From: Candidatus Zixiibacteriota bacterium
GTDB taxonomy: Bacteria; Zixibacteria; MSB-5A5; GN15; FEB-12
Length of the DNA: 34,214 bases
NCBI GenBank assembly: GCA_034439475.1
Contig: JAWXAN010000013.1
Span: 1-34,214, forward strand
Direction: 5' to 3'
The notes beneath the pieces were generated by a model. It was not told where the DNA came from. It did no database searches and saw only the letters and a program-made list of their open reading frames with translations. Every line of letters begins with the position of its first letter. Position 1 is the stretch's first letter. Of the stretch, positions 566 through 34,214 are shown one piece after another. A program made the position numbers and the translations under genes.

Positions 566-3247
566 CTATTTCAGCAAGAGCATCTTTTTTGTTTGACTTA
601 CTTCCCCTATCCGCAATCGGTAGAGATATATTCCTGTCGCCACCCGAGCCCCATCGCTCGATGTTGCGTTCCATTCAACCTGGTGTTCACCCGGCTGTAA
701 TTCCTCGTTCAGCAATGTGTTGACCTGTTGTCCGAGTACATTGAAGATTTCCAAAGACACTTTCTGTGTTTTGGTTCCCCCAGAAGAACGAGGCACCGTG
801 AACTCGATCGTTGTTGTCGGATTAAATGGATTCGGATAGTTCTGTTTTAGAAGGAAACTGACCGGTAGCGGGGCATCGACACCCTGTACGCCCACCGATG
901 TTGCCGTGCCGGTCGAAAGAAGCGCCTGGCTCAATCGAAGCACCGATTTATCGCCGGATTGGATATCGTCTTTTGCCGTAATCGGTATCTCAACCAAATC
1001 GGCAAACCCGGGCTGGAGCAATCCGGACTCACTCGATGACCGGTCTAATGTATAAAGTATCATACGAAGGCTGCCGCGGCCATCATCTTTGTACTGTAAA
1101 ACGAAGTTGTCGGCATCAGTGCTAATTTTTGGCTGACCAACAGTCACAGCCGCCGGGTCATAGGCAACTTCAAGCTGTACACCGGCAATTTTGTGATGCA
1201 ACTCGGTTTTAATGGTCATCATTTCGGTTGTGCCGTATGGAATGTTATCGTATGCCAGAGAGACGACGGCATCCGGGCCCGGCTCAGGAATGCTGGGACT
1301 TGGCGAGATTGGCGATCCGTATATAAAGTTTATATCTCCGACCAAATCAAACACATTCACCGAATCGTTGGTGATAATATCCGCGGTCGAAAACTGCCGC
1401 GGAGTCAAACCGAAATTGCCAATGATATACGCGACAATATTGACCACATCAGCCACATTGATTCGCCTGTCAAGATTCACATCGCCAGGATTGTCGATAT
1501 CGATGATTCCTGAATCAGTCTTGAGCGTGTCAGAAGCGACATTTGGATTAGGGTCAATCGATTCAAAGGCGCTGTCGAGATGTATCGGATAGCGCTGCCA
1601 TGGAATCGCGCTTGAATCTATCGAGAAGACCGCATATAAAATCGCCGTACTGGTGTCTGAAACGACAGGCTCATTATTAAGCCCGAAAGACAACACTTTC
1701 ACTCTGCCGGGTGTATTTCCGATATTGTCATAGACAACATAGTCTGGGATTCGGCCTGTCACGACAAACGAATCAAGAGTGACTACATCAAGCGGGTGTC
1801 TGAGATTAAACTGAATACCATACACGGTCTTATTCGTAATAAGATTTATCGGGAACATGACGCCCTTAGCGCCCCTGAGTCCGCCAACCGGTTTTTGATT
1901 GGCCGCCGATGTCGAAAAGAGTTTGTCGACCGGAAGCGCGCTCACTTGAATCGTCGCCGCTGTATTGGTGGTTCCTCCGCTGTTGACTGCCGAAAAGTTC
2001 ACGACAAATGTCCCGACTTGGCCGATATTCGGCGTAAAGCTGAATATTCCGCTCACCGGGCTCGGACCAAGAATTGGATTTGTCGGCGCAAAAGCCCCGT
2101 TCTGCGGAATATTGCTTGCACGGAGAGTTATGTTTCCATTGGCGGCTTGGCCGGTAGCAGTAACCGTAAAGCTGACCGCTTGTCCTTCTGTCGTTACATA
2201 TGCTGGACCCACAGGAGAAAAGCTGATTGTAGGGACACTAACTGGAGGTGGTGTGCCGCTTACTGTAATTGTCTTGCTTGCTGAGTCTGATTGAACTCCC
2301 TTCCACGCTTTGAGCTTGAAAGTACTGGTCGCCACTAACGAAGTTGGCAGGCTGGATGTCAAAGTCGTCGAGGAAAGGATATAAACACCATCTTTATAAA
2401 GTTGCAGCGAGTCGCCATTAGTTACAGTCCAATTGAGATTAAAAAATTCGCCGGGCGCGACTGTTGACTTGCTCGCACTAAGGACAATAGTCGGTTTAGG
2501 CGGAGTCGTGTCAGTGATAAACCGCATCAACCCTGTGAATTGAGAAGGAAACACAAGATTATCAATCGGTTCAGTAACACCCAGCGGCGTCCAGACTTCA
2601 TTCAACTGCCCCGCATTACATCCGCCAAAACAGGTGCGGATCGGAAGTCCGCTTGAGGTATCAACAATACAAATATCTTCTCTAAGCAGGAAGAATCGCG
2701 CCGTATCCCGAAGATGTACCAATGTCGGTTTCGCGATAAACTTTATATAGAAGATTACACTTCCTGCCGCATCGGCGGCTAGGGTATCTGCAAATTTTGG
2801 AGGATCGTCTACCGGAAGAGGCGGGAGCAAGGTAACTGAAATTGAGTTCAAGCGCCGGTTGTCAGTATTCGGATTGACTGGAGTTGTGTCATTTGTAAGA
2901 TATACTCCGCTAAAATCCGAACTGTTAAGCGCGGACGCCAGCCGCCCCGCAGGAATCATATCAAGAAAATAGGTTGTGTCCCCACTAATTGGGTTTATGT
3001 CAAGAATCTCGACCAAATCCAGCTTTGATGTGTCAAACCGAATAAAGAAACGAAACGCGGTAACTGCCGAATCGTTGTCCAAAGAGAACGGCATAAGCAC
3101 CGTATCGCCTGGCGAACCTCTGAAATCTAAAATACGCATCGATTCTTTTGGCGATGGGGTCAGATCAGCGCAAGACTGCGCCTTCACCGATTGATTCCAA
3201 AACAACGCGAACAACAGACACAGTATAGGAATCTTCAATAATCGCAT
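566..3247 (-). CDS. Large exported cohesin-like/dockerin-like protein with C-terminal sorting domain
   Basis: The protein has 893 residues from ATG 3247, which has GAGG five bases upstream. A longer frame to 3301 lacks a ribosome site and adds residues before the signal peptide. Residues 1-24 are a signal peptide ending VKA before QS. Residues ~35-190 look cohesin-like ('SPGDTVLMPFSLDNDSAV' and 'FDTSKLDLVEI'). Two Ig-like modules follow to ~435. A second cohesin-like module spans ~442-565. A dockerin-like segment lies at ~586-645 ('GDVNLDRRINVADVVNIV' and a second Asp/Asn loop 'NDSVNVFDLVG'). A further beta module reaches ~787. The last ~97 residues are a type A-like sorting domain with 'QNYPNPFNPTTTIEF', 'GIYLYRL' and the terminus 'TKKMLLLK'. 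It lies 55 bases after the related upstream gene, which implies co-transcription. Domain names are assigned by motif only. The ligand and function are unknown; a structural or carbohydrate-related surface role is an inference. Confidence 0.85.
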   Translation of the reverse strand: MRLLKIPILCLLFALFWNQSVKAQSCADLTPSPKESMRILDFRGSPGDTVLMPFSLDNDSAVTAFRFFIRFDTSKLDLVEILDINPISGDTTYFLDMIPAGRLASALNSSDFSGVYLTNDTTPVNPNTDNRRLNSISVTLLPPLPVDDPPKFADTLAADAAGSVIFYIKFIAKPTLVHLRDTARFFLLREDICIVDTSSGLPIRTCFGGCNAGQLNEVWTPLGVTEPIDNLVFPSQFTGLMRFITDTTPPKPTIVLSASKSTVAPGEFFNLNWTVTNGDSLQLYKDGVYILSSTTLTSSLPTSLVATSTFKLKAWKGVQSDSASKTITVSGTPPPVSVPTISFSPVGPAYVTTEGQAVSFTVTATGQAANGNITLRASNIPQNGAFAPTNPILGPSPVSGIFSFTPNIGQVGTFVVNFSAVNSGGTTNTAATIQVSALPVDKLFSTSAANQKPVGGLRGAKGVMFPINLITNKTVYGIQFNLRHPLDVVTLDSFVVTGRIPDYVVYDNIGNTPGRVKVLSFGLNNEPVVSDTSTAILYAVFSIDSSAIPWQRYPIHLDSAFESIDPNPNVASDTLKTDSGIIDIDNPGDVNLDRRINVADVVNIVAYIIGNFGLTPRQFSTADIITNDSVNVFDLVGDINFIYGSPISPSPSIPEPGPDAVVSLAYDNIPYGTTEMMTIKTELHHKIAGVQLEVAYDPAAVTVGQPKISTDADNFVLQYKDDGRGSLRMILYTLDRSSSESGLLQPGFADLVEIPITAKDDIQSGDKSVLRLSQALLSTGTATSVGVQGVDAPLPVSFLLKQNYPNPFNPTTTIEFTVPRSSGGTKTQKVSLEIFNVLGQQVNTLLNEELQPGEHQVEWNATSSDGARVATGIYLYRLRIGEVSQTKKMLLLK

Positions 3248-3302
3248 CGTTACCTCTATATGGTATAAAATAATATTCTTCTCAGTCACATTCCCTCTCA
3301 TC

Positions 3303-5744
3303 TTATTTCACCAAGAGCATTTTCTTGGTTGAGGATTCAGTTCCGGCCACAAGCCTGTACAAATAGACACCGGACGAAACAGACGCTCCATTTTCCCCAT
3401 GTCCGTCCCAGACTACCGTGTGCGATCCAGCCGATAAATCATCGTCGACCAGAGAGCGGATTTTCTGTCCGGCAATATTGAAAATGGTCAGTTCCACTCG
3501 CGAAGCGCGGGGGAGCGCAAAATTAATCGATGTACTTGGGTTAAACGGATTCGGATAATTTTGCATCAATATAAATTCAGTCGGTAAGGTAGTCACAGTT
3601 GTCGAGTGGAGTGCGGTCACAGCGCGGCCTTCGGAAGATGACAACTCGACCTTCTCAAAAGAGAACGACTCAGACGACATTCCTTCAATTGAAAATAGCG
3701 GAGAATACCCCGCCGCTATTGAATTCGCTTCGAGACTATAGACGAGCACATTGAGCATTCCGCCGATCTGTTCAGCCGTACATGTCATATTCGGTTGAAG
3801 CCCTGTTATCTGCGGGTCAGTCCCTTCAGCCAGCGGAATCTGAATATAGACCCCGCCCAATTCAAAATCGGCCGAGGAGAAGACCGTTGTCCGGTGAGCC
3901 TCAGCTTCAATACTTATTTGTGCCGTCAGTTCGGCGGAGGAATTGAATTCCCGTCTCGGACCACCCGAGACAACAGTTTTTATCAAAAGCACCAGATCAG
4001 AAATCGTGGCCGCGAGATTGTCATTATTCACATCCGAATTGGCGTATTGCAGCGCATTGAATGAATAGCTGAACGGATTGATGAGGAAATTTGAAAAATA
4101 AATGGCATCGCCGATTTCAAAGGCCAGCCCATTGAGATTAATATCACCCCGATTGATAGCTCCGACACTTTCAAATGCAACACGCCCATTCAAGTAGAAA
4201 ATCTGCTCCCGGCTGATCTTGACGCCCAGCGAGTCTACCAGTGTGTTGTCATTTTGCTCGAAATCCAAATACTTGAACGCGAGCGGAACACTCAATCCGC
4301 CAAGACCTATATCACCACTCGTGGCAAAAGTCATTTTGGCAATGGCTCCATTGCCGGAAGTCAGGACACCGCCGAGCGGCGCTGTAATGTCGGCTGTGCC
4401 GATAATCCGCAGATCGCCCGGACGGCCGGACGCATTATTTGTATAGGTGAAATATTCAAAAGCCGCTGCCCGCGTTCCTGTCTTAGTCAATGAAGCCAAA
4501 AAGAGCGCGCTCGGATCATAGTTGAAAAGTATATTGAAGCCCGTTATCGGAACCTTATTATCTAAATGAACTTCAATCGTCGCGGTTTCACCCGGATAAA
4601 CCTCCACGGTATCAATAGACAAAGTGTAGATATTAACCGGGTTGATTCGTACTGATATCTGTGCGCTGTCGGCCGCTCCAGTTGGGTCAGATGCCACAAT
4701 CATGACATTGTATTCCCCCGAATCAACTATGGTCGAGTTCCAGTTAAAATTCGAAGGATTCCCCGGGGTAAAAGTTGCCGCTGTCGGTTTATTTATGATT
4801 GTCCATGATATCGCCTCGAAATCCAGATCGACAGCCGATAGCGCGAAAGTTACAAGACTTCCGGCATCAACCGTAATTGTCGCCGGAGAGGTTACGACCG
4901 GACGGCGGTTCTTGTTTGTTACATTGATTTGAATTTGCTGCTGGGTGAACCGATTTCCATCGCTTGCGCGAAAGGTAACGGTAAACGGTGAACCGGCTGA
5001 TGAATACGGGCCGACATAATCAGGCCGCCATGAAAAACGCCCCGTGCCGTCGCCGTTATCTATGAATGTCGCCCCGACAGGTTTCGAAGTTACCGACAAC
5101 GAAAGATTATCCAAATCAATATCGGCCGCGCCGACTGTCAATACCAGACTATCACCTTCCATTATAGACTGATCATTCATTGAAGCAATTGTGGGGGGAC
5201 GATTGACATGTTTCACGACCACTTTCCCTTGCGCAAAGGCCGGGCGAATTGGCCCGTTGGTCGTGGCTTCAACAAGGAGAAGTTCTCCTCCCGGCGGATA
5301 GAAAAGACTGTCAATCTTGGCCACCGCTCCAGCCGCTGCCGATAATTTCACGGTAAAAAGAGCCGTAAAAATAAGTCCGTCGCCAACGGCAAGAGGACTC
5401 TCAAATATTTTTATAACGGCAACGACAAAATGTCCATTTGTGTTTTGGGCCAATTCAGGATTGGTAATCCGCGTGGCGATATAACTCACCCGTGACCCAA
5501 GGAAGTGAATTGAATCAAGCTGTAATAATGCGGTATCGTATATAATCGGAATGGAAATAGAGCTTATCAGCTCATCATTCCTGAGCGAAAATCTGACTGC
5601 CGCTTGTCCACCGGCTGTTGTCTGCACAGAGTCTACATAGACCAGATCAAGAGCGCCGAACGGGTCGGACACAGCTGAGACTCTGCCGCCAAACAAAAGC
5701 ATCGTGCCAAGAGCTACTGTAATATATTTGAACATCATCGTCAT
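3303..5744 (-). CDS. Large exported cohesin-like/dockerin-like protein with C-terminal sorting domain
   Basis: The protein has 813 residues. The start could be ATG 5744, or ATG 5738, which is eight bases from a weak GGAC; no strong ribosome site distinguishes them. A signal peptide covers about 1-24 (ends VSA). A cohesin-like module spans ~30-175. Two Ig/cadherin-like repeats at ~180-365 carry 'NRPPTIASMNDQSIMEGD' and 'TFIDNGDGTGRFSWRPDY'. A second cohesin-like module spans ~371-525 ('VYPGETATIEVHLDNKVP' and 'FNYDPSALFL'). The dockerin-like segment at ~530-595 has two loops, 'GDINLNGLAFEIGDAIYF' and 'SDVNNDNLAATISDLVLL'. A beta module follows, then a sorting domain at ~721-813 ('QNYPNPFNPSTSINF', ending 'TKKMLLVK'). 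The module order matches the downstream gene at 566-3247, so the two are probably paralogues within one operon. Function is unknown beyond an exported, probably surface-anchored, structural protein. Confidence 0.85.
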   Translation of the reverse strand: MTMMFKYITVALGTMLLFGGRVSAVSDPFGALDLVYVDSVQTTAGGQAAVRFSLRNDELISSISIPIIYDTALLQLDSIHFLGSRVSYIATRITNPELAQNTNGHFVVAVIKIFESPLAVGDGLIFTALFTVKLSAAAGAVAKIDSLFYPPGGELLLVEATTNGPIRPAFAQGKVVVKHVNRPPTIASMNDQSIMEGDSLVLTVGAADIDLDNLSLSVTSKPVGATFIDNGDGTGRFSWRPDYVGPYSSAGSPFTVTFRASDGNRFTQQQIQINVTNKNRRPVVTSPATITVDAGSLVTFALSAVDLDFEAISWTIINKPTAATFTPGNPSNFNWNSTIVDSGEYNVMIVASDPTGAADSAQISVRINPVNIYTLSIDTVEVYPGETATIEVHLDNKVPITGFNILFNYDPSALFLASLTKTGTRAAAFEYFTYTNNASGRPGDLRIIGTADITAPLGGVLTSGNGAIAKMTFATSGDIGLGGLSVPLAFKYLDFEQNDNTLVDSLGVKISREQIFYLNGRVAFESVGAINRGDINLNGLAFEIGDAIYFSNFLINPFSYSFNALQYANSDVNNDNLAATISDLVLLIKTVVSGGPRREFNSSAELTAQISIEAEAHRTTVFSSADFELGGVYIQIPLAEGTDPQITGLQPNMTCTAEQIGGMLNVLVYSLEANSIAAGYSPLFSIEGMSSESFSFEKVELSSSEGRAVTALHSTTVTTLPTEFILMQNYPNPFNPSTSINFALPRASRVELTIFNIAGQKIRSLVDDDLSAGSHTVVWDGHGENGASVSSGVYLYRLVAGTESSTKKMLLVK

Positions 5745-5862
5745 TCGTCCGCAAGGAGATTACTCCGACTACTGTCTGAGCAATTACCAGACCAGCTTTA
5801 CCTTCTGTTAATGACAGCTCGCCTCATTTCCTTCGCGGCCAAGGCCAAACATCCACGAAACT

Positions 5863-5908
5863 CTTTAGTGTTTTTCAACAAGTCCATGTAAGAAAAAGAA
5901 CACTAAAG
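5863..5908. repeat. 10-bp inverted repeat upstream of the 5744 gene
   Basis: The arms ctttagtgtt (5863-5872) and aacactaaag (5899-5908) are perfect complements. T-rich and A-rich sequence next to the arms inside the loop could lengthen the stem with a bulge. It lies ~120 bases upstream of the start at 5744. It could be a leader hairpin or an operator; the sequence does not decide which. Confidence 0.5.
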
Positions 5909-6226
5909 ACTTAGTCTCTAACGACCGTGCCAAACCATCTTAACAATCAGGCGATTATAGTTCCCTTGCAGTTATGGGCAAGCATATAAGTGAGGTCTAA
6001 ATTGAAACTCAAACCTATCATTATAAAGCCAAACAATTGCGCAATGCCCTGCGCAGCGCCCTTTTTAGATACCCCAACCGGACCCAATATACAAAAAAAG
6101 ATGACCTTTGGCACGAACTTTCTGCCAGTCATCTTGAATAATTTTCTCATCTGCAATTCTTCTATTCTCTGCAATTCTTAGTCTATTTCTTCTCTATATC
6201 TATGTCGCCCAGCTTACTCCTCCCGT

Positions 6227-6265
6227 CTTAAAATTATCCCCGGGAAGGAATTATCCTTCCCGGGG
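6227..6265 (-). terminator. Rho-independent terminator after the 6282-8879 gene
   Basis: A perfect 12-bp stem is formed by ccccgggaagga (6238-6249) and tccttcccgggg (6254-6265) with a four-base loop. Read on the minus strand it begins 17 bases beyond the stop codon and is followed by ATAATTTTAAG, a short T-rich stretch. It should separate this transcript from the downstream exported-protein operon. Confidence 0.75.
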
Positions 6266-6281
6266 AGGTATCCAAAAAAGA

Positions 6282-8879
6282 TTACTTCAAGAGTACGGCT
6301 TTCTTGGTCAAGGAAACCTGACCTTTGACATCAAGCTTGTAGAAATACACGCCTGAAGCATTGTTCGAAGCATCCCATTCGTAGGTGACAGTACCGGCAT
6401 CTGAAGAGCCATTGAATTCGTTAACAACCTGGCCAGTTACGTTGTAAATGGTCAAGGTGTAGTCGCCTGCTTTAGGCAGACCGAAAGAAATGGTGGTCTT
6501 CGGGTTGAACGGATTAGGATAATTCTGATTCAGCGAATAGCTGGACGGAATTGTCTTGGCCGCAACCATGTTACCTGTAGCGTCAGCAAGTTCGACGCTT
6601 ACGATCTGAGCGTTGTTCAAATCAAGGACATCGCCTGAGAAGGAGTTAACGCCGAAACCAAAGTGGTTGACATCCGGGATAACAAGAATACGGGTATTCT
6701 GGCCATCAAAGCTGGATGTCATTACTGTACCAACTTCGTTGATAAGCAATTCCGGAGTTACGTTGCCTTTGACGACAACAAAAGCGCCACCAAGTTCGCC
6801 ATCAACCGAGAATGTACCATTAGTATAATTGTACTTTCCTGACTGAGCGGAGACCTTAGGAACGGCTTGGAAATCACCAACGACGACTTTGATTGCATAA
6901 ACCAAGTCAGCGACTGTCAGCGGGTTGCCGTCAGCATTGACATCGGAAGCAGCAATCGAACCATCGACATGACCAGCGAAAGCGCCAAGGCCATTGACGA
7001 AATAGTTGGTGAACATGACGACGTCAGCAATTTCGATGTACACGCCGTTGAGGTTTATATCACCACGGGCGTCGATTGAGTCGGCGCAGATGATACAAAC
7101 TCCACCGTTCTGGAAATCGATATTGCGAATCGGGGCTCCTTTAGGACCTGGGACCAAGCAGCTGTTCTGAGCGCCGAGGTAGGTCGGGAAGGTGCCTGTG
7201 CCGTTGTTGACCGGATTAGAATTGCCAGATTCAAACACTTTGTCTGAGACATAAAGCTGCGAACCTGAAGCGTTTGAAAGGGTGTTGTCTGTGCAATCAA
7301 CCCAGAACCAACGGATCGGAACATACTGGCATTCAAGTGTACGGTTGTTTGAAATCAAGAACACAACATGAGCCAATGTGACCGGAAGGGTACCAACAAA
7401 AGGAGTCGGGCTGGCACAACCGGGGTGGTTGGCGCCATTGTTGGTTTCGGCAATACCAACTAAGCGCATCAGACCTGAAGGGCATCCACCTGAGCAGATA
7501 CCGTTCGCGCCGAAGCGATAGGTGAAATATTCCCATCCGCACTCAGTGTAGATGGCACCCGGGAGGGCAGACTGAGGAGAAAGTGCGGAGTTGTCATAGG
7601 CGATAAGGAGGTCAAAGCCGCCGAGACCTTGCTGCGGATCGATACTCTCAAGAGTAAGGTCGACTGTGACGAATCCGCCTTGGATCTGACAAGCGACATC
7701 TTCGATCGTCAAGCCATACGGAGCGCCTGTGATGACATTGTAGCAAACGTTACAGGTATCGGAAGCGAGACCGTCGGATGCAACAACAGCAAAGCAGCGA
7801 ACTGCAGGGCCATCGGTGGCGGACGGAGTGTAAGACAGAAGGCCCGTTGCGTCAACGGAGAAAGCACCTGTGGTGCCGGGGGTCAACGCAGTAACGGTCC
7901 AAGTCAGCGGATCGCAATCATCGGAAGCATCAACATTCTGCGTCTTGGTGTCACCGGTTGTAATGGTGAGGGCACCAGCCGGGCAGGCTGTGATGCTCGG
8001 ACCAGCGTTGGTCACGATGATATTGACAGTACAATTAGGACCGTCGCCAGCATCGTCTGCATCGACTACGAGGGTAATCGAAGCGCCGACATCAAGAAGA
8101 GTCGCGCCGTTCCAGCTCCACACGCCAGTCGTGGTATTGATTGAACCAGGACCGCTGACGAGTTGATACAGGAAGCCATCGGACTCGACATCTGTGGCGT
8201 TAAAGTCGTATGTCAAAGTCGCGCAATGGCTGCCAGTGATGCTCACCGGGCAGTTTGAAATGGTCGGAGGAAAGTTCGGGGACTTGAAGATTTCATAGCA
8301 AGTCTTACCCTGCCACGTCGGCTTCACGTTCGGTGTAGAGAGACCAGCCCATGTCCAGGTACCAATCGGCGCTGTACCTGCAGCGGAATCGATGCAGATA
8401 TGCTTACCGGTATCGGACAATTTCGAATTGATGATGATCTGATAAGCAATACCATTGTAGCTGGTTGAAAGACCTTTTGTAGGATCGAACGAAACACCAG
8501 CAAAGGCAATGGAATCAGCATTAGTTCCCTGGGTAAGAGGCCCCGGGAAGTGGCGGCGGTTGATGAAGAACTGGGTAAAGAAAGATGGGGCTCCGGTATT
8601 GATGTTACCAGCAACGTTGTTGGTTCCATACGTGGAATCCCATGTGGCGCTGTCCGGGGAGGAGATGGCAAAGCCGTTGTTCGGATTATAATTCTTGGCG
8701 GCAGGACCTCCAAGGTTATTAATCCGGATGCTGATAACGTGTACATTGCCGGCCTCGAGTTGGAGGGGACCAGCGTCATTTGAGACGTTATCAACGGAGA
8801 TGTGCTGTTGAGCGGATGCCGAAGCTGCCGCCAAACAGATTGAGAAAACTAAAGCGAAGAAAAATGAAAGTCTTTTCAT
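6282..8879 (-). CDS. Large exported Ig-like/cohesin-like/dockerin-like protein with C-terminal sorting domain
   Basis: The protein has 865 residues from ATG 8879, with AGGAG six bases upstream. Residues 1-23 are a clear signal peptide (MKRLSFFF, ending ASA before QQ). The N-terminal beta domain (to ~200) is followed by Ig-like repeats at ~204-290 and ~290-380 ('ATDVESDGFLYQ' and 'LTITTGDTKTQNV'). A cohesin-like module with many Cys residues starts near 387 ('IAYDNSALSPQSALPG'). A dockerin-like segment spans ~604-668 ('RGDINLNGVYIEIADVVMF', then 'SDVNADGNPLTVADLVYAI'). A beta domain and a sorting domain at ~778-865 complete it ('QNYPNPFNPKTTISFGLP', 'GVYFYKL', terminus 'LTKKAVLLK'). The architecture repeats that of the two genes downstream, but this gene has its own terminator. 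The paired Cys residues in the cohesin-like module set it apart from its paralogues and suggest disulfides in an oxidising compartment. Ligand and role are unknown. Confidence 0.87.
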   Translation of the reverse strand: MKRLSFFFALVFSICLAAASASAQQHISVDNVSNDAGPLQLEAGNVHVISIRINNLGGPAAKNYNPNNGFAISSPDSATWDSTYGTNNVAGNINTGAPSFFTQFFINRRHFPGPLTQGTNADSIAFAGVSFDPTKGLSTSYNGIAYQIIINSKLSDTGKHICIDSAAGTAPIGTWTWAGLSTPNVKPTWQGKTCYEIFKSPNFPPTISNCPVSITGSHCATLTYDFNATDVESDGFLYQLVSGPGSINTTTGVWSWNGATLLDVGASITLVVDADDAGDGPNCTVNIIVTNAGPSITACPAGALTITTGDTKTQNVDASDDCDPLTWTVTALTPGTTGAFSVDATGLLSYTPSATDGPAVRCFAVVASDGLASDTCNVCYNVITGAPYGLTIEDVACQIQGGFVTVDLTLESIDPQQGLGGFDLLIAYDNSALSPQSALPGAIYTECGWEYFTYRFGANGICSGGCPSGLMRLVGIAETNNGANHPGCASPTPFVGTLPVTLAHVVFLISNNRTLECQYVPIRWFWVDCTDNTLSNASGSQLYVSDKVFESGNSNPVNNGTGTFPTYLGAQNSCLVPGPKGAPIRNIDFQNGGVCIICADSIDARGDINLNGVYIEIADVVMFTNYFVNGLGAFAGHVDGSIAASDVNADGNPLTVADLVYAIKVVVGDFQAVPKVSAQSGKYNYTNGTFSVDGELGGAFVVVKGNVTPELLINEVGTVMTSSFDGQNTRILVIPDVNHFGFGVNSFSGDVLDLNNAQIVSVELADATGNMVAAKTIPSSYSLNQNYPNPFNPKTTISFGLPKAGDYTLTIYNVTGQVVNEFNGSSDAGTVTYEWDASNNASGVYFYKLDVKGQVSLTKKAVLLK

Positions 8880-9242
8880 TTTTTTCTCCTAACTTCTTCG
8901 TTAACAAATTAGTGTGCGCGACGATCATTATCATTCTTTTTCCCGCCTCAATTTAGCCGACCGATACAACAGCGAGAGCCAACCAGCTGGAAGTATACCT
9001 CGCGGCTTAAATCAAAAATGATGTTAATCGTGAAAATTCCTATTAGAGCGCGTGCAAGATGCCTCTTTTAAACGTCCTCCTCTCCATCGCTTACGCCTGT
9101 TTATCTCCTGGACGCCGGAGTGTGTGACCCAGACATCCATTTTTTCGTTCTCAAAAAAGTAATTCATTATTCAGCATTCAGCCGGTATTATCTCTTTGTG
9201 CAGTTACCGTTCAGCCAACAACAATTTGCCCATTTAGTTTTA
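8880..9242. other. 363-base intergenic region upstream of the 8879 gene
   Basis: No supportable gene is visible. It must hold the 5' region of the 6282-8879 gene and the 3' end of the 9243-10343 transcript. The 13-base string cgaccgatacaac at 8958-8970 recurs with one mismatch at 10434-10446, upstream of the related gene at 10343. No convincing terminator hairpin was seen after the stop at 9243. Confidence 0.4.
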
Positions 9243-10343
9243 TCATTGCAGACAGCACATATCTTGGAGGGATATAAATAAATAATCTATCAAGACCGTC
9301 AGGTCGGAAATATCAACCGATCCCTCGGCATCGCAGTCCAAATTTCCGATAGAGAGCGGCTCAATCGGAGCTAATGTTATAAAGAGAAAATCAATCAGAA
9401 CGGTAAGATCGGAGATGTCAATGCTCTCCGCCGGGTCATGGTCGAGATTACCGCATGCCCCGCATTCGGTTCCTTCGGCTACCGTGAGAGAGCCGACATA
9501 GAGCTTCACCTTGTTCGTATCCAACGTCGCAACCGTATCCAAAGTAATCTTAATTGAATCGTACGGCACGCCTGAGACCTGGACATAGTTCACGCAGACT
9601 TGATTGTCCGGCGGAAGCCAGGAGTTACAGCGGTAATAATTTGTGTCCGGAACGGTGGTCGTGACAATTCCTATAGATGTGCCATCGGGTCTTGAGAAGT
9701 TGAAATGGTCAAGAAATGGCTGAGGTATAATGTAGACTGTGCGGTCTGTGGATGAATCGGGAACACATTTAATATCTCCAAGGAGCCGGAACAATACACC
9801 GCCGCTTTGAGGGGAAATACCGGGAGTCGTGCCGCCACTGCCGAACAAATCGGCGATTCCGGTGACTTTGATATCGAAACCCGATCCGGTTATTGAACGC
9901 GCAACGACATATTCCCAATTTTGAATAAGTGTGCCGGCGATGCTAAAACTGCCGACCACGGCCTCAACTGTGTCTATATGCCTGATATTCCACGTTTCGT
10001 TTTTGGACCTTCCGACGGAATCGACACAATTCAGACCCTGATACTGTCTACAGAACCAATAGGTGGTATCGACCACGGGCACTGTGTCGGTTTTGAACAC
10101 CATTATATCGGGACGATCAAGCTGGAGCCAAAGCTCGAAAGCTGACACCGTCTGAGTGGGATTGTCCAATGAGACAGTCGTCATTGAGTTTTGTTGGCCG
10201 GCATTGCCGACGGTATCGCCGACGGTGACTATAATGTCTGGAATTTGCGCTTGTACAGACAACGCGCCGCCAAGGAGTACTATAAATGAGAGGGCGCACA
10301 AAGCGCCAAACGAGATGCGATACTTACGAAAGCCTGTTGACAT
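9243..10343 (-). CDS. Exported cohesin-like protein with terminal dockerin-like segment
   Basis: The protein has 366 residues from ATG 10343, chosen because GGAGG lies eight bases upstream. The frame extends to a TTG at 10364, but that adds residues ahead of a good signal peptide (about residues 1-32, ending VQA before QIPD). A cohesin-like module follows ('VTVGDTVGNAGQQNSMTTVSL', hydrophobic strands 'AFELWLQLDRPDIMVF'). From ~297 to the end lies a dockerin-like pair: 'IDISDLTVLIDFLFITL' and, 32 residues later, 'VDISDLTVLIDYLFISL', each preceded by an Asp-rich loop ('NLDHDPAES', 'NLDCDAEGS'). The protein ends a few residues later with Cys-Cys, so it lacks the sorting domain of its neighbours. 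The same dockerin signature ends the FG-GAP protein at 31830-34214. It could be a soluble or docked partner of the sorted proteins; that is an inference. Confidence 0.85.
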   Translation of the reverse strand: MSTGFRKYRISFGALCALSFIVLLGGALSVQAQIPDIIVTVGDTVGNAGQQNSMTTVSLDNPTQTVSAFELWLQLDRPDIMVFKTDTVPVVDTTYWFCRQYQGLNCVDSVGRSKNETWNIRHIDTVEAVVGSFSIAGTLIQNWEYVVARSITGSGFDIKVTGIADLFGSGGTTPGISPQSGGVLFRLLGDIKCVPDSSTDRTVYIIPQPFLDHFNFSRPDGTSIGIVTTTVPDTNYYRCNSWLPPDNQVCVNYVQVSGVPYDSIKITLDTVATLDTNKVKLYVGSLTVAEGTECGACGNLDHDPAESIDISDLTVLIDFLFITLAPIEPLSIGNLDCDAEGSVDISDLTVLIDYLFISLQDMCCLQ

Positions 10344-31155: not shown

Positions 31156-31199
31156 GGGGGGTTGTCGGGCGAAGCATTCTCAGTTTCCTTTCTCTTGTC

Positions 31200-31219
31200 A
31201 TTCCAGCGCAAGCTGGAAT
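31200..31219. repeat. dRS3-like palindrome, copy 1
   Basis: attccagcgcaagctggaat has eight-base arms and a gcaa loop. It has the ATTCC...GGAAT form of the dispersed repeats known as dRS3 in Neisseria. It starts 45 bases after the TetR stop. Confidence 0.8.
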
Positions 31220-31406
31220 CCATCTTCTCCGATATTTGTAGGTCGATACCTTCCGAGGTCTCGACATCTTTCTCCGTTCCGTCAGATCTTGCCGAACTTC
31301 TTAGGGCGGTGTGACCTGACGGTCACTTGGTGCGCGACCGGGACGTCCCGCACGAATATTTCCTGCCACAGCGAACTGTGTGTTCACCAATTCCTTATTC
31401 TATGTC

Positions 31407-31426
31407 ATTCCAGCGCAAGCTGGAAT
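31407..31426. repeat. dRS3-like palindrome, copy 2
   Basis: Identical in sequence to copy 1, preceded by tctatgtc as in copy 3. Confidence 0.8.
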
Positions 31427-31672
31427 CCATCTTCGTCTTCGTACAGGCCATCTTCGGCCTGCACCTCATCCTCGATCACACCGCACGCAGTGTGGTACAA
31501 GATACTATAGCAGACATCTCACAGCTCGTCATTGCGAGTTTCGCTTCTTAGTCCGCCGTGGCGGATGGCAATCTCATATTCGTCTTAATGCTTGGTGCGC
31601 GACAGGGATGTCCCGCACGAATATTTCCTGCCGTGGCGGACTGGGGTGTTCAGCGACTCTTTCTTCTATGTC

Positions 31673-31692
31673 ATTCCAGCGCAAGCTGGAAT
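31673..31692. repeat. dRS3-like palindrome, copy 3
   Basis: Identical in sequence to copies 1 and 2. It lies 266 bases after copy 2, matching the tandem period of the surrounding block. Confidence 0.8.
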
Positions 31693-31794
31693 CTATCTTC
31701 GTCTTCGTGCAGGCCGTCCTCCATTGGCGGATTCGAAAATCTCTGGCCTGCACAAACATTAAGATCACACCGCAAGCAGTGTGGTACAAAGTAG

Positions 31795-31829: not shown

Positions 31830-34214
31830 CTACTCGCACCCAACATCCAACGGCCCTAAACTAATAAACAAATAATCTATCAGCCTCGTCAAATCCGCAA
31901 TATCCGCCACACAATCCCCATCAACATCTGCCACAAACTCAGGACTTATCGGAGCCAGACTGATAAACAGATAATCTATCATAGCCGTCAGATCCGAAAT
32001 ATCGGTAACATGCGAATGATTAACATCCCCCAACTCCCACGTCCAGAATGACTGCACTGGCGATGCCGCCGATAAACCATCGGAATCAAAGGCCGTCACC
32101 TTCCAGTAGAACCGTGTCCCAAAAAAGAGCGAATCGCCCACTCCGGTTATCGTATATAATGTATCCGTCAATGAATCATAAACCGTCGCAAAATTAAGCG
32201 ATGGAGTGAACGCCACCGCAAGTTTATAGCGCGTCATATCATTGGGATCAGGATCAAGCGCACGATTCCAACTGAATGTCGGAAGCATGGTAAAGATCGG
32301 CAAGGGAGGATTGTTGGCCGGTGAAATAGTCGACGGCACCGATGGCGGTTCGTTGATACCATCCACCACAAAAGACGACACCGCGCTCCATGCCGAATAC
32401 TCATACGCATCGAACGACCGCGCCCTCCAGTAGAGCGTACTGTTTTCGGGCAGTGACGACGGCACATTCCAGACGGTTGTCCCGCTCCCCGAAGCTACTC
32501 CGCTTTGAGCGAGCACCTGATTCGTAATCAGCGGGTCGGAATAGATTTCAAAATCATACACCAGCGCATCGTTCTCTGCATCGGTGGCATTGGTCACAAT
32601 GAGTGATGGCGAACTGCCGACTATGGTATTGCTGACAGGCGCTACAAGCGCGGGAGTACTCGGCACAGAATTCATGCGGAAAACTTCCTCCCGCCACGGC
32701 GACCACCGGCTTCCGTTGTAGACACGGATTCTCAGATAATAGGTCGCGCCGTCAACTAAGCTCACTCCAGCATATGTCAAAAAGCTATCTGATGAAATAA
32801 ACGGAGCCGGATTCCACATTTCAGCGAATGCCCAGTTGTTGTTTGTACCGACCGCAAACTCAATCTGTGTTTGCGGCGAGACTCCGGTCGGGTCAAAATA
32901 ATCCCATACAAATAAAGGCGTATGGTCAATGACATTTAAATTGGCGGCTTTGTTATCGACGAGCAGGGAATCGACTTCGGGCGTGACCTGCAGAACCGCC
33001 AAGCTGACAACCTGCGTGTCGGCAAGAAAACCATCAGAGACAATAACAGAGAAACTCGTATCGGATACCGGATAGACCGCCGTGCCATAGATTGAATCAG
33101 CATTTGATGCCATCCATGAAGGCTTATTGGTAAAGCTATATGTAGCCGAAGGTCCATCAGGATCGGCGCTTGTGGCATGGTAGACAAAGAGCGAGGCTTC
33201 GGTGGCAGTGTCGGAGGTGGGTGATGTCAGAGTAGGAGCTACAACATTACTAACATTTATCAGGATCGAGACAGTGACGGAAAAGTAATTCGCGACCGCC
33301 AGATCGGATTTCCCGTCCCCGTCAAAGTCGGCGGAAGTAACTGAAATAGCATAGCTCCCCACCCCGTAATTCACCGCTGACGCAAAGGTACCGTTGCCGT
33401 CGTTTTTCAGGATCGAAACATTGTTAGAGTAATTCGCGACCGCCAGATCAGGTTTCCCGTCCCCGTCAAAGTCGGCGGATGTAACTGACCTAGGATTAAT
33501 CCCCACCCCGTAATTCACCGCTGATGCAAAGGTCCCGTTGCCGTCATTTTTCAGGATCGAGACAGTGCTGGAATATTCATTCGCGACCGCCAGATCAGGT
33601 TTCCCGTCACCGTCAAAGTCGGCGGAAGTAACTGAATAAGGACCGCTCCCCACCCCGTAATTCACCGCTGACGCAAAGGTACCGTTGCCGTTGTTTTTCA
33701 GGATCGAGACATTGCTGGAACTTATATACGCGACCGCCAGATCAGGTTTCCCGTCACCGTCAAAATCGGCGGATGTAACTGAAGTAGGAGACCCCCCCAC
33801 CCCGTAATTCACCGCTGACGCAAAGGTCCCGTTGCCGTTGTTTTTCAGGATCGAGACACTTCCGGAGCCTGCATTCGCGACCGCCAGATCAGGCTCCCCG
33901 TCCCCGTCAAAGTCGGCGGATGAAACTGAATAAGGAACGCTCCCCACCCCGTAATTCACCGCTGACGCAAAGGTCCCGTTGCCGTTGTTTTTCAGGATCG
34001 AGACACTTCCGGAGCCTGCATTCGCGCCCGCCAGATCAGGTTTCCCGTCCCCGTCAAAGTCGGCGGAAGTAACTGAATAAGGAGAGACCCCCACCCCGTA
34101 ATTCACCGCTGACTCAAAGGTCCCGTTGCCGTTGTTTTTCAAAATCGAGACACTGTTGGAAGAGTAATTCGCGACCGCCAGATCAGGTTTCCCGTCCCCG
34201 TCAAAGTCGGCGGA
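31830..34214 (-). CDS. FG-GAP/VCBS repeat protein with terminal dockerin-like segment (5' end cut by window edge)
   Basis: The frame is open to the window edge (794 residues visible); a TTG at 34142 inside a repeat is not the real start. The visible N-terminal part is six full ~49-residue repeats plus a truncated seventh. Each opens 'SADFDGDGKPDLAVAN', a Ca-binding DxDxDG loop of FG-GAP/VCBS beta-propeller repeats, and continues 'SVSILKNNGNGTFASAVNYG'. A cadherin-like module ('FTNKPSWMASNADSIYGTAV') and Ig/fibronectin-like modules ('SPWREEVFRMNSVPSTPALV', 'VDGINEPPSVPSTISPANNP') follow. The last ~65 residues are dockerin-like, 'GDVNHSHVTDISDLTAMIDY' and 'DVDGDCVADIADLTRLIDYL', then LFISLGPLDVGCE at the end. 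There is no sorting domain. The C-terminal signature matches the protein at 9243-10343. A role in extracellular adhesion or surface assembly is inferred. Confidence 0.88.
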   Translation of the reverse strand, partial: SADFDGDGKPDLAVANYSSNSVSILKNNGNGTFESAVNYGVGVSPYSVTSADFDGDGKPDLAGANAGSGSVSILKNNGNGTFASAVNYGVGSVPYSVSSADFDGDGEPDLAVANAGSGSVSILKNNGNGTFASAVNYGVGGSPTSVTSADFDGDGKPDLAVAYISSSNVSILKNNGNGTFASAVNYGVGSGPYSVTSADFDGDGKPDLAVANEYSSTVSILKNDGNGTFASAVNYGVGINPRSVTSADFDGDGKPDLAVANYSNNVSILKNDGNGTFASAVNYGVGSYAISVTSADFDGDGKSDLAVANYFSVTVSILINVSNVVAPTLTSPTSDTATEASLFVYHATSADPDGPSATYSFTNKPSWMASNADSIYGTAVYPVSDTSFSVIVSDGFLADTQVVSLAVLQVTPEVDSLLVDNKAANLNVIDHTPLFVWDYFDPTGVSPQTQIEFAVGTNNNWAFAEMWNPAPFISSDSFLTYAGVSLVDGATYYLRIRVYNGSRWSPWREEVFRMNSVPSTPALVAPVSNTIVGSSPSLIVTNATDAENDALVYDFEIYSDPLITNQVLAQSGVASGSGTTVWNVPSSLPENSTLYWRARSFDAYEYSAWSAVSSFVVDGINEPPSVPSTISPANNPPLPIFTMLPTFSWNRALDPDPNDMTRYKLAVAFTPSLNFATVYDSLTDTLYTITGVGDSLFFGTRFYWKVTAFDSDGLSAASPVQSFWTWELGDVNHSHVTDISDLTAMIDYLFISLAPISPEFVADVDGDCVADIADLTRLIDYLFISLGPLDVGCE
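33336..34214 (-). repeat. Tandem 147-bp repeats inside the FG-GAP gene
   Basis: Five 147-base units and one 144-base unit run from 34214 down to 33336, each coding one propeller blade. They are nearly identical at the DNA level (ccgtcaaagtcggcgga and caccccgtaattcaccgctg recur in each). Differences are concentrated in the short variable stretch after 'AVAN' and after 'YGVG'. The array continues beyond the window edge. Confidence 0.9.

Follow-up and report, generated by a model that had tools for sequence, protein, structure and literature searches.

A conserved gene row of T9SS-tailed cohesin proteins and dockerin-ended partners in Zixibacteria, a candidate non-cellulosomal surface-assembly locus

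Cohesins and dockerins are common outside cellulosomes, and because they are usually scattered there, their non-cellulosomal role is hard to test. The locus analyzed here raises the question of what such modules do when they are gathered in one row of exported proteins. The window, a 34,214-base stretch of DNA, is one entire contig of a Zixibacteria genome (2.66 Mb, 98.7% complete). Four neighbouring genes, P1 to P4, all lie on the minus strand and encode proteins with signal-peptide-like N-termini (Table 1), and the ORF list and translations agree with the original prediction on the reading frames, their order, coordinates and strand, and the exported N-termini. The prediction had overlooked P0, the fifth gene of the row, whose start lies 22 bases past P1. 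Searching the window for Rfam families and tRNA genes gave no match. Further along, on the plus strand between 11495 and 15238, the window encodes three products that probably serve metal uptake: an exported protein, a short protein rich in His and Cys, and a TonB receptor whose heme and ZnuD-type matches lie below cut-off.

Table 1 Features of the locus. Amino-acid numbers of P1 refer to a 911-aa frame starting at 3301.
Gene	Position	Strand	Modules (aa)	Basis
P0	1..543	-	N-terminal 181 aa; gene cut by contig end	Translation
P1	566..3247	-	Signal peptide; cohesin 1 (about 46-265); Ig/cadherin-like modules; cohesin 2 (456-602); dockerin (603-668); cohesin-like 3 (676-812); T9SS type A tail (815-911)	PF00963 2.9e-12, PF00404 0.018, TIGR04183 2.8e-7; AlphaFold2, Foldseek; orthologue alignment
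P2	3303..5744	-	Signal peptide; cohesin 1 (30-172); two cadherin-like modules (176-369); cohesin 2 (372-528); 13-residue-loop dockerin (529-596); cohesin-3-like beta module (600-722); T9SS tail (724-813)	PF00963 9.5e-11, Big_9 2.4e-9, TIGR04183 2.6e-9
P3	6282..8879	-	Signal peptide; N-terminal module, weakly cohesin-like; two cadherin-like modules; cohesin (about 386-560); 13-residue-loop dockerin (600-671); beta module (672-776); T9SS tail (780-865)	TIGR04183 2e-12; AlphaFold2 and Foldseek to cohesins
P4	9243..10343	-	Signal peptide; N-terminal beta region, possibly cohesin-like; C-terminal dockerin (about 295-366); no T9SS tail	PF00404 0.047 (2.4e-7 in best orthologue); PDB dockerin 4fl4_A 2.7e-4

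Cohesin and dockerin modules of P1 to P4

The original prediction had placed cohesin-like modules in all four proteins and had proposed an HMM search and structure prediction as checks. With PF00963, for which the gathering cut-off is 24.1 bits, P1 (47.4 bits) and P2 (42.5 bits) scored above the cut-off, each with two matching stretches, and the Pfam search of the window proteins gave no match in P3 or P4. The assignment in P2 recurs in 17 of 18 orthologues, and the P2 profile matches the PDB cohesin dyad 3l8q (5.6e-7). P3 is predicted to have a cohesin fold despite the silence of PF00963: 10 of 26 relatives match the family, the P3 cohesin profile aligns with the second cohesin of P2 at 99.65% (hhalign), and the AlphaFold2 model of residues 383-865 (mean pLDDT 83, pTM 0.54) retrieved PDB cohesins as the leading Foldseek matches (E 1e-7 to 1e-8, TM about 0.7-0.8 by target length). 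The model of P1 residues 456-911 (pLDDT 84, pTM 0.66), in which the dockerin is well ordered, has among its best Foldseek matches a GH84C cohesin-FN3 construct and a ScaA type II cohesin dyad, and the P1 profile aligns weakly, at the right places, with PDB cohesins and dockerins. A cohesin fold was thus predicted in both of the modelled proteins. For the N-terminal region of P4 the alignment to cohesins was weak (hhalign 68% at best) and none of 21 P4 relatives matched PF00963 in the Pfam search, so that its cohesin half, possibly cohesin-like by sequence, stays unconfirmed. The claims that cohesin-like modules occur throughout and that both halves of the pair sit on each chain can accordingly be kept for P1, P2 and P3 and not for P4.

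A two-loop dockerin-like segment had likewise been predicted in each protein. We found paired calcium-loop motifs in all four proteins as compared with 7-17 of 2000 shuffled copies, although in P1 the second pattern match does not line up with the actual loop, which is degenerate. The dockerin profiles of P1 to P4 are mutually homologous (hhalign 69-99.7%). The proposed search with PF00404 gave a more divided answer: P1 (15.6 bits) and P4 (14.3 bits) fell below the Pfam cut-off of 22.9 bits, P2 and P3 gave no match in the Pfam search, and the best P4 orthologue matched the family clearly (Table 1).

The orthologue alignments show near-invariant calcium-loop ligands and differences in loop length from the type I pattern of two F-hand repeats, each with a 12-residue calcium loop of the form D-x-[DN]-x-[DNS]...D. 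Both loops have 13 residues in all 26 sequences of the P3 type and in 15-16 of 17 sequences of the P2 type, and it is likely because of these longer loops that PF00404 is silent in the two proteins. Loop 1 of P1 is canonical in 20 of 21 sequences and loop 2 is degenerate, its second ligand position being occupied, as judged by eye in the alignment, by a hydrophobic residue. The loop length in P4 varies from 12 to 14 residues. The putative 13-residue-loop dockerin may represent a binding class absent from current models. The residue two positions after the last loop aspartate is V or I in the internal dockerins and more often T or S in the terminal ones, a difference that would fit two pairing classes.

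The close association of the modules could have a different meaning, namely that the dockerin in P1 to P3 is a calcium-stiffened hinge on the neighbouring cohesin-like modules, that no binding in trans takes place, and that each protein is a monomeric rod, either secreted or at the surface. P1 to P3 have in common the module row cohesin, dockerin, beta module and tail; the distance from the last cohesin strand to the dockerin is only a few residues, with few gaps in the orthologue alignments; and the C-terminal half of P1 with its well-ordered dockerin was modelled with the higher pTM. For P3, however, no fixed packing in cis is predicted, since the pTM reaches only 0.54, and the presence of cohesin-tail proteins together with dockerin-ended proteins in one locus would be unneeded for a purely internal role. 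We regard the hinge as a rather unlikely explanation.

Secretion, gene order and the fifth gene

As predicted, three of the four proteins carry a C-terminal sorting domain, which is a T9SS type A tail scoring above the TIGR04183 cut-off in P1, P2 and P3. No such tail was found in P4 of the window or in the P0 copy scanned from the relative L166. The genome that contains the window encodes 30 proteins with TIGR04183 tails as well as the type IX components SprA (568 bits) and PorU (654 bits).

The original prediction had also asked whether the gene order recurs in related genomes, and the row P4-P3-P2-P1-P0 is kept across Zixibacteria. Among 20 loci fetched around P3, P4 is the neighbour of P3 in all 20, while P1 occurs in 18 and P2 in 14. 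A second set of 22 loci was chosen by name or for their P1, and many of these belong to distant families; 20 of them have a P3-type gene, 19 have P0 and 16 have P4. By our count, about 90 of the 132 phylum genomes contain the P1-type module row, and the matches in other phyla rest mainly on the T9SS tail. P3-type cohesin-dockerin-tail matches number at least 14 per genome (14-17 among the matches listed) in each of 61 genomes of the order; these proteins form a large family expansion in the 61 genomes.

In relatives P0 is a giant protein of cadherin/Big_9 repeats. The copies in L166, L167 and L168 have 3135, 3347 and 3242 residues, respectively, with dockerin-like repeats at the C-terminus and no T9SS tail, and in the L166 copy Pfam finds 28 Big_9 stretches followed by PF00404 at 3073-3126 (E 0.019). 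The C-terminus of P0 was read in relatives only, and not every relative has a dockerin there: the repeat ORFs of L169 and L170 have a different end, and in L170 it is the next ORF that ends in a dockerin. Contigs often break off inside P0, which fits its repeats. The remainder of the window's own P0 was suspected at the start of contig C21, and the stretch read there gave no sign of it.

At five distant loci the place of P2 is taken by one to three small proteins consisting of a cohesin and a tail. When four of these were scanned with Pfam, the cohesin was over the cut-off in one and just below it in another, and by sequence the middle members appear to be cohesin-only in some families. Proteins of this kind, about 280 residues long and made up of a single cohesin-like module plus a T9SS tail, were seen at L029:3969-4847 (contig C21 of the same genome) and in L211-L213, L216 and L217.

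Above we described tailed proteins with cohesins and untailed proteins ending in dockerins. We propose, at about even odds (a probability near 0.5), that this row, conserved across the phylum, serves to assemble a non-cellulosomal surface structure from cohesin carriers with tails and partners that end in a dockerin, and it is the conserved order of the two kinds of genes that points to co-assembly. P1, P2 and P3, along with the small cohesin-tail proteins in some families, would be exported via the type IX system, and PorU would trim these carriers, which would either stay attached to the outer membrane or be set free and would display their cohesins. P0 and P4, which end in a dockerin and have no sorting tail, would probably dock onto the carrier cohesins in a Ca2+-dependent manner, and the dockerins inside P1 to P3 would probably connect one carrier with another. 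What results would be a scaffold or a fibre coat on the cell surface. A more specific version, which we hold only tentatively, is a phylum-wide, Ca2+-assembled, non-enzymatic fibre or sheath in which T9SS-exported cohesin carriers would tether a cadherin-like repeat protein of at least 3,000 residues via its dockerin, and a second class of dockerins with 13-residue loops would link the carriers.

Several results count against the surface-assembly reading. PF00404 is below its cut-off or silent in P1 to P4 and a ligand is lost from loop 2 of P1; the cohesin of P4 is unconfirmed and the C-terminus of P0 is not always a dockerin; and neither P4 nor P0 has a tail that would account for its passage across the outer membrane. 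The original prediction was that P1 to P4 join head-to-tail into a surface-tethered polymer, for which the conserved presence of both halves on P1, P2 and P3 speaks. P4, however, has neither a confirmed cohesin nor a tail, P0 is left out of that model, and the middle proteins that lack a dockerin in some families could not extend a chain. The carrier and client scheme fits better because the dockerin of P0 and of P4 is terminal and no sorting tail follows it, and self-polymerization of this kind, possible as just one assembly option among several, is quite improbable as the account of the whole locus.

Enzymes and comparison with known systems

The original prediction had seen no glycoside hydrolase, and the Pfam search, which covered the locus proteins and ten further proteins of dockerin type from this genome, matched none in P1 to P4 or in those ten. 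The combination expected of a cellulosome, a scaffoldin with dockerin-bearing glycoside hydrolases, is thus absent among the proteins scanned, and most of the dockerin proteins examined carry PKD, FN3, FG-GAP or unknown domains. Phosphomevalonate-kinase and BpsA matches on two dockerin proteins were below the Pfam cut-off and were disregarded. A count of C-terminal dockerins versus T9SS tails was not used as evidence, since the two are exclusive by construction, both needing the C-terminus, and since the loci had been picked for P1 to P3 homologues, which biases the class sizes. One protein of the same genome (L019:3668-5848) is an M14 zinc carboxypeptidase with a MAM-like domain whose C-terminus matches the dockerin profile of the locus.

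This carboxypeptidase would suit a degradative complex like a cellulosome or planctosome, in which the cohesins collect secreted hydrolases with C-terminal dockerins, and similar schemes have been proposed for Cloacimonadota (PMC8542988) and for Planctomycetes (PMC6461901). Against it stand the domains of the dockerin proteins examined, without a glycoside hydrolase match, and the conserved locus itself, which is devoid of an enzyme, and we consider such a complex unlikely. If the surface-assembly reading is true, T9SS-displayed cohesins would here serve the building of a structure on the surface and not of a complex for digestion.

Clostridial scaffoldins are known to carry a cohesin and a dockerin on one chain. 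The locus shares with them (CipA, ScaA/ScaB) the cohesin fold and the joining of cohesins and dockerin on one chain, but differs in that no glycoside hydrolase was found, in having T9SS tails where those scaffoldins use SLH or sortase anchoring, in its cadherin-like repeats and in the 13-residue calcium loops of P2 and P3. The same joining is reported for ANME archaea (PMC9012536) and proposed for the planctosome (PMC6461901), cohesin/dockerin proteins are listed among the putative adhesins of syntrophic sulfate reducers (PMC10553843), and a cohesin scaffoldin with a C-terminal surface-attachment domain is reported in Cloacimonadota (PMC8542988). Both the shared chain and a surface-displayed cohesin scaffold are thus already described, and what is new here is the gene row that spans the phylum, the giant partner with a terminal dockerin and the loops of 13 residues.

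The system of ‘Ca. Stygibacter’ (PMC8542988) is similar in its cohesin protein, which is reported to have a surface-attachment C-terminus, and in its dockerin-ended partners. It has one scaffoldin of 3,755 residues with CBMs and glycoside hydrolase or peptidase clients, whereas the present locus has several medium-sized carriers with internal dockerins, a giant dockerin-ended repeat protein and a conserved row of five genes. The proposed planctosome (PMC6461901) is likewise non-cellulosomal with an adaptor carrying dockerin and cohesin on one chain and an M14 peptidase client, and has a Lamin-tail anchor and hyaline repeats and, in the part of its description consulted, no T9SS tails. ANME and their partner sulfate reducers (PMC9012536, PMC10553843) share the arrangement of one dockerin with several cohesins and a proposed role in adhesion, but those proteins are reported to vary between close relatives, unlike the Zixibacteria row. 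Our literature search found no paper joining Zixibacteria with dockerins or T9SS. A gene row kept across an uncultured phylum names the likely partners and thereby makes pairwise binding directly testable.

At the far end of the window (31830-34214, minus strand) lies a protein of FG-GAP and Ig-like repeats, cut by the contig end, with a clear terminal dockerin (PF00404 9.8e-6) and no T9SS tail, which is possibly another client of the locus cohesins. Next to it, the intergenic positions 31196-31789 contain a 32-nt element in three copies and repeat pairs of 76, 53 and 27 nt, with a spacing of about 265-289 nt.
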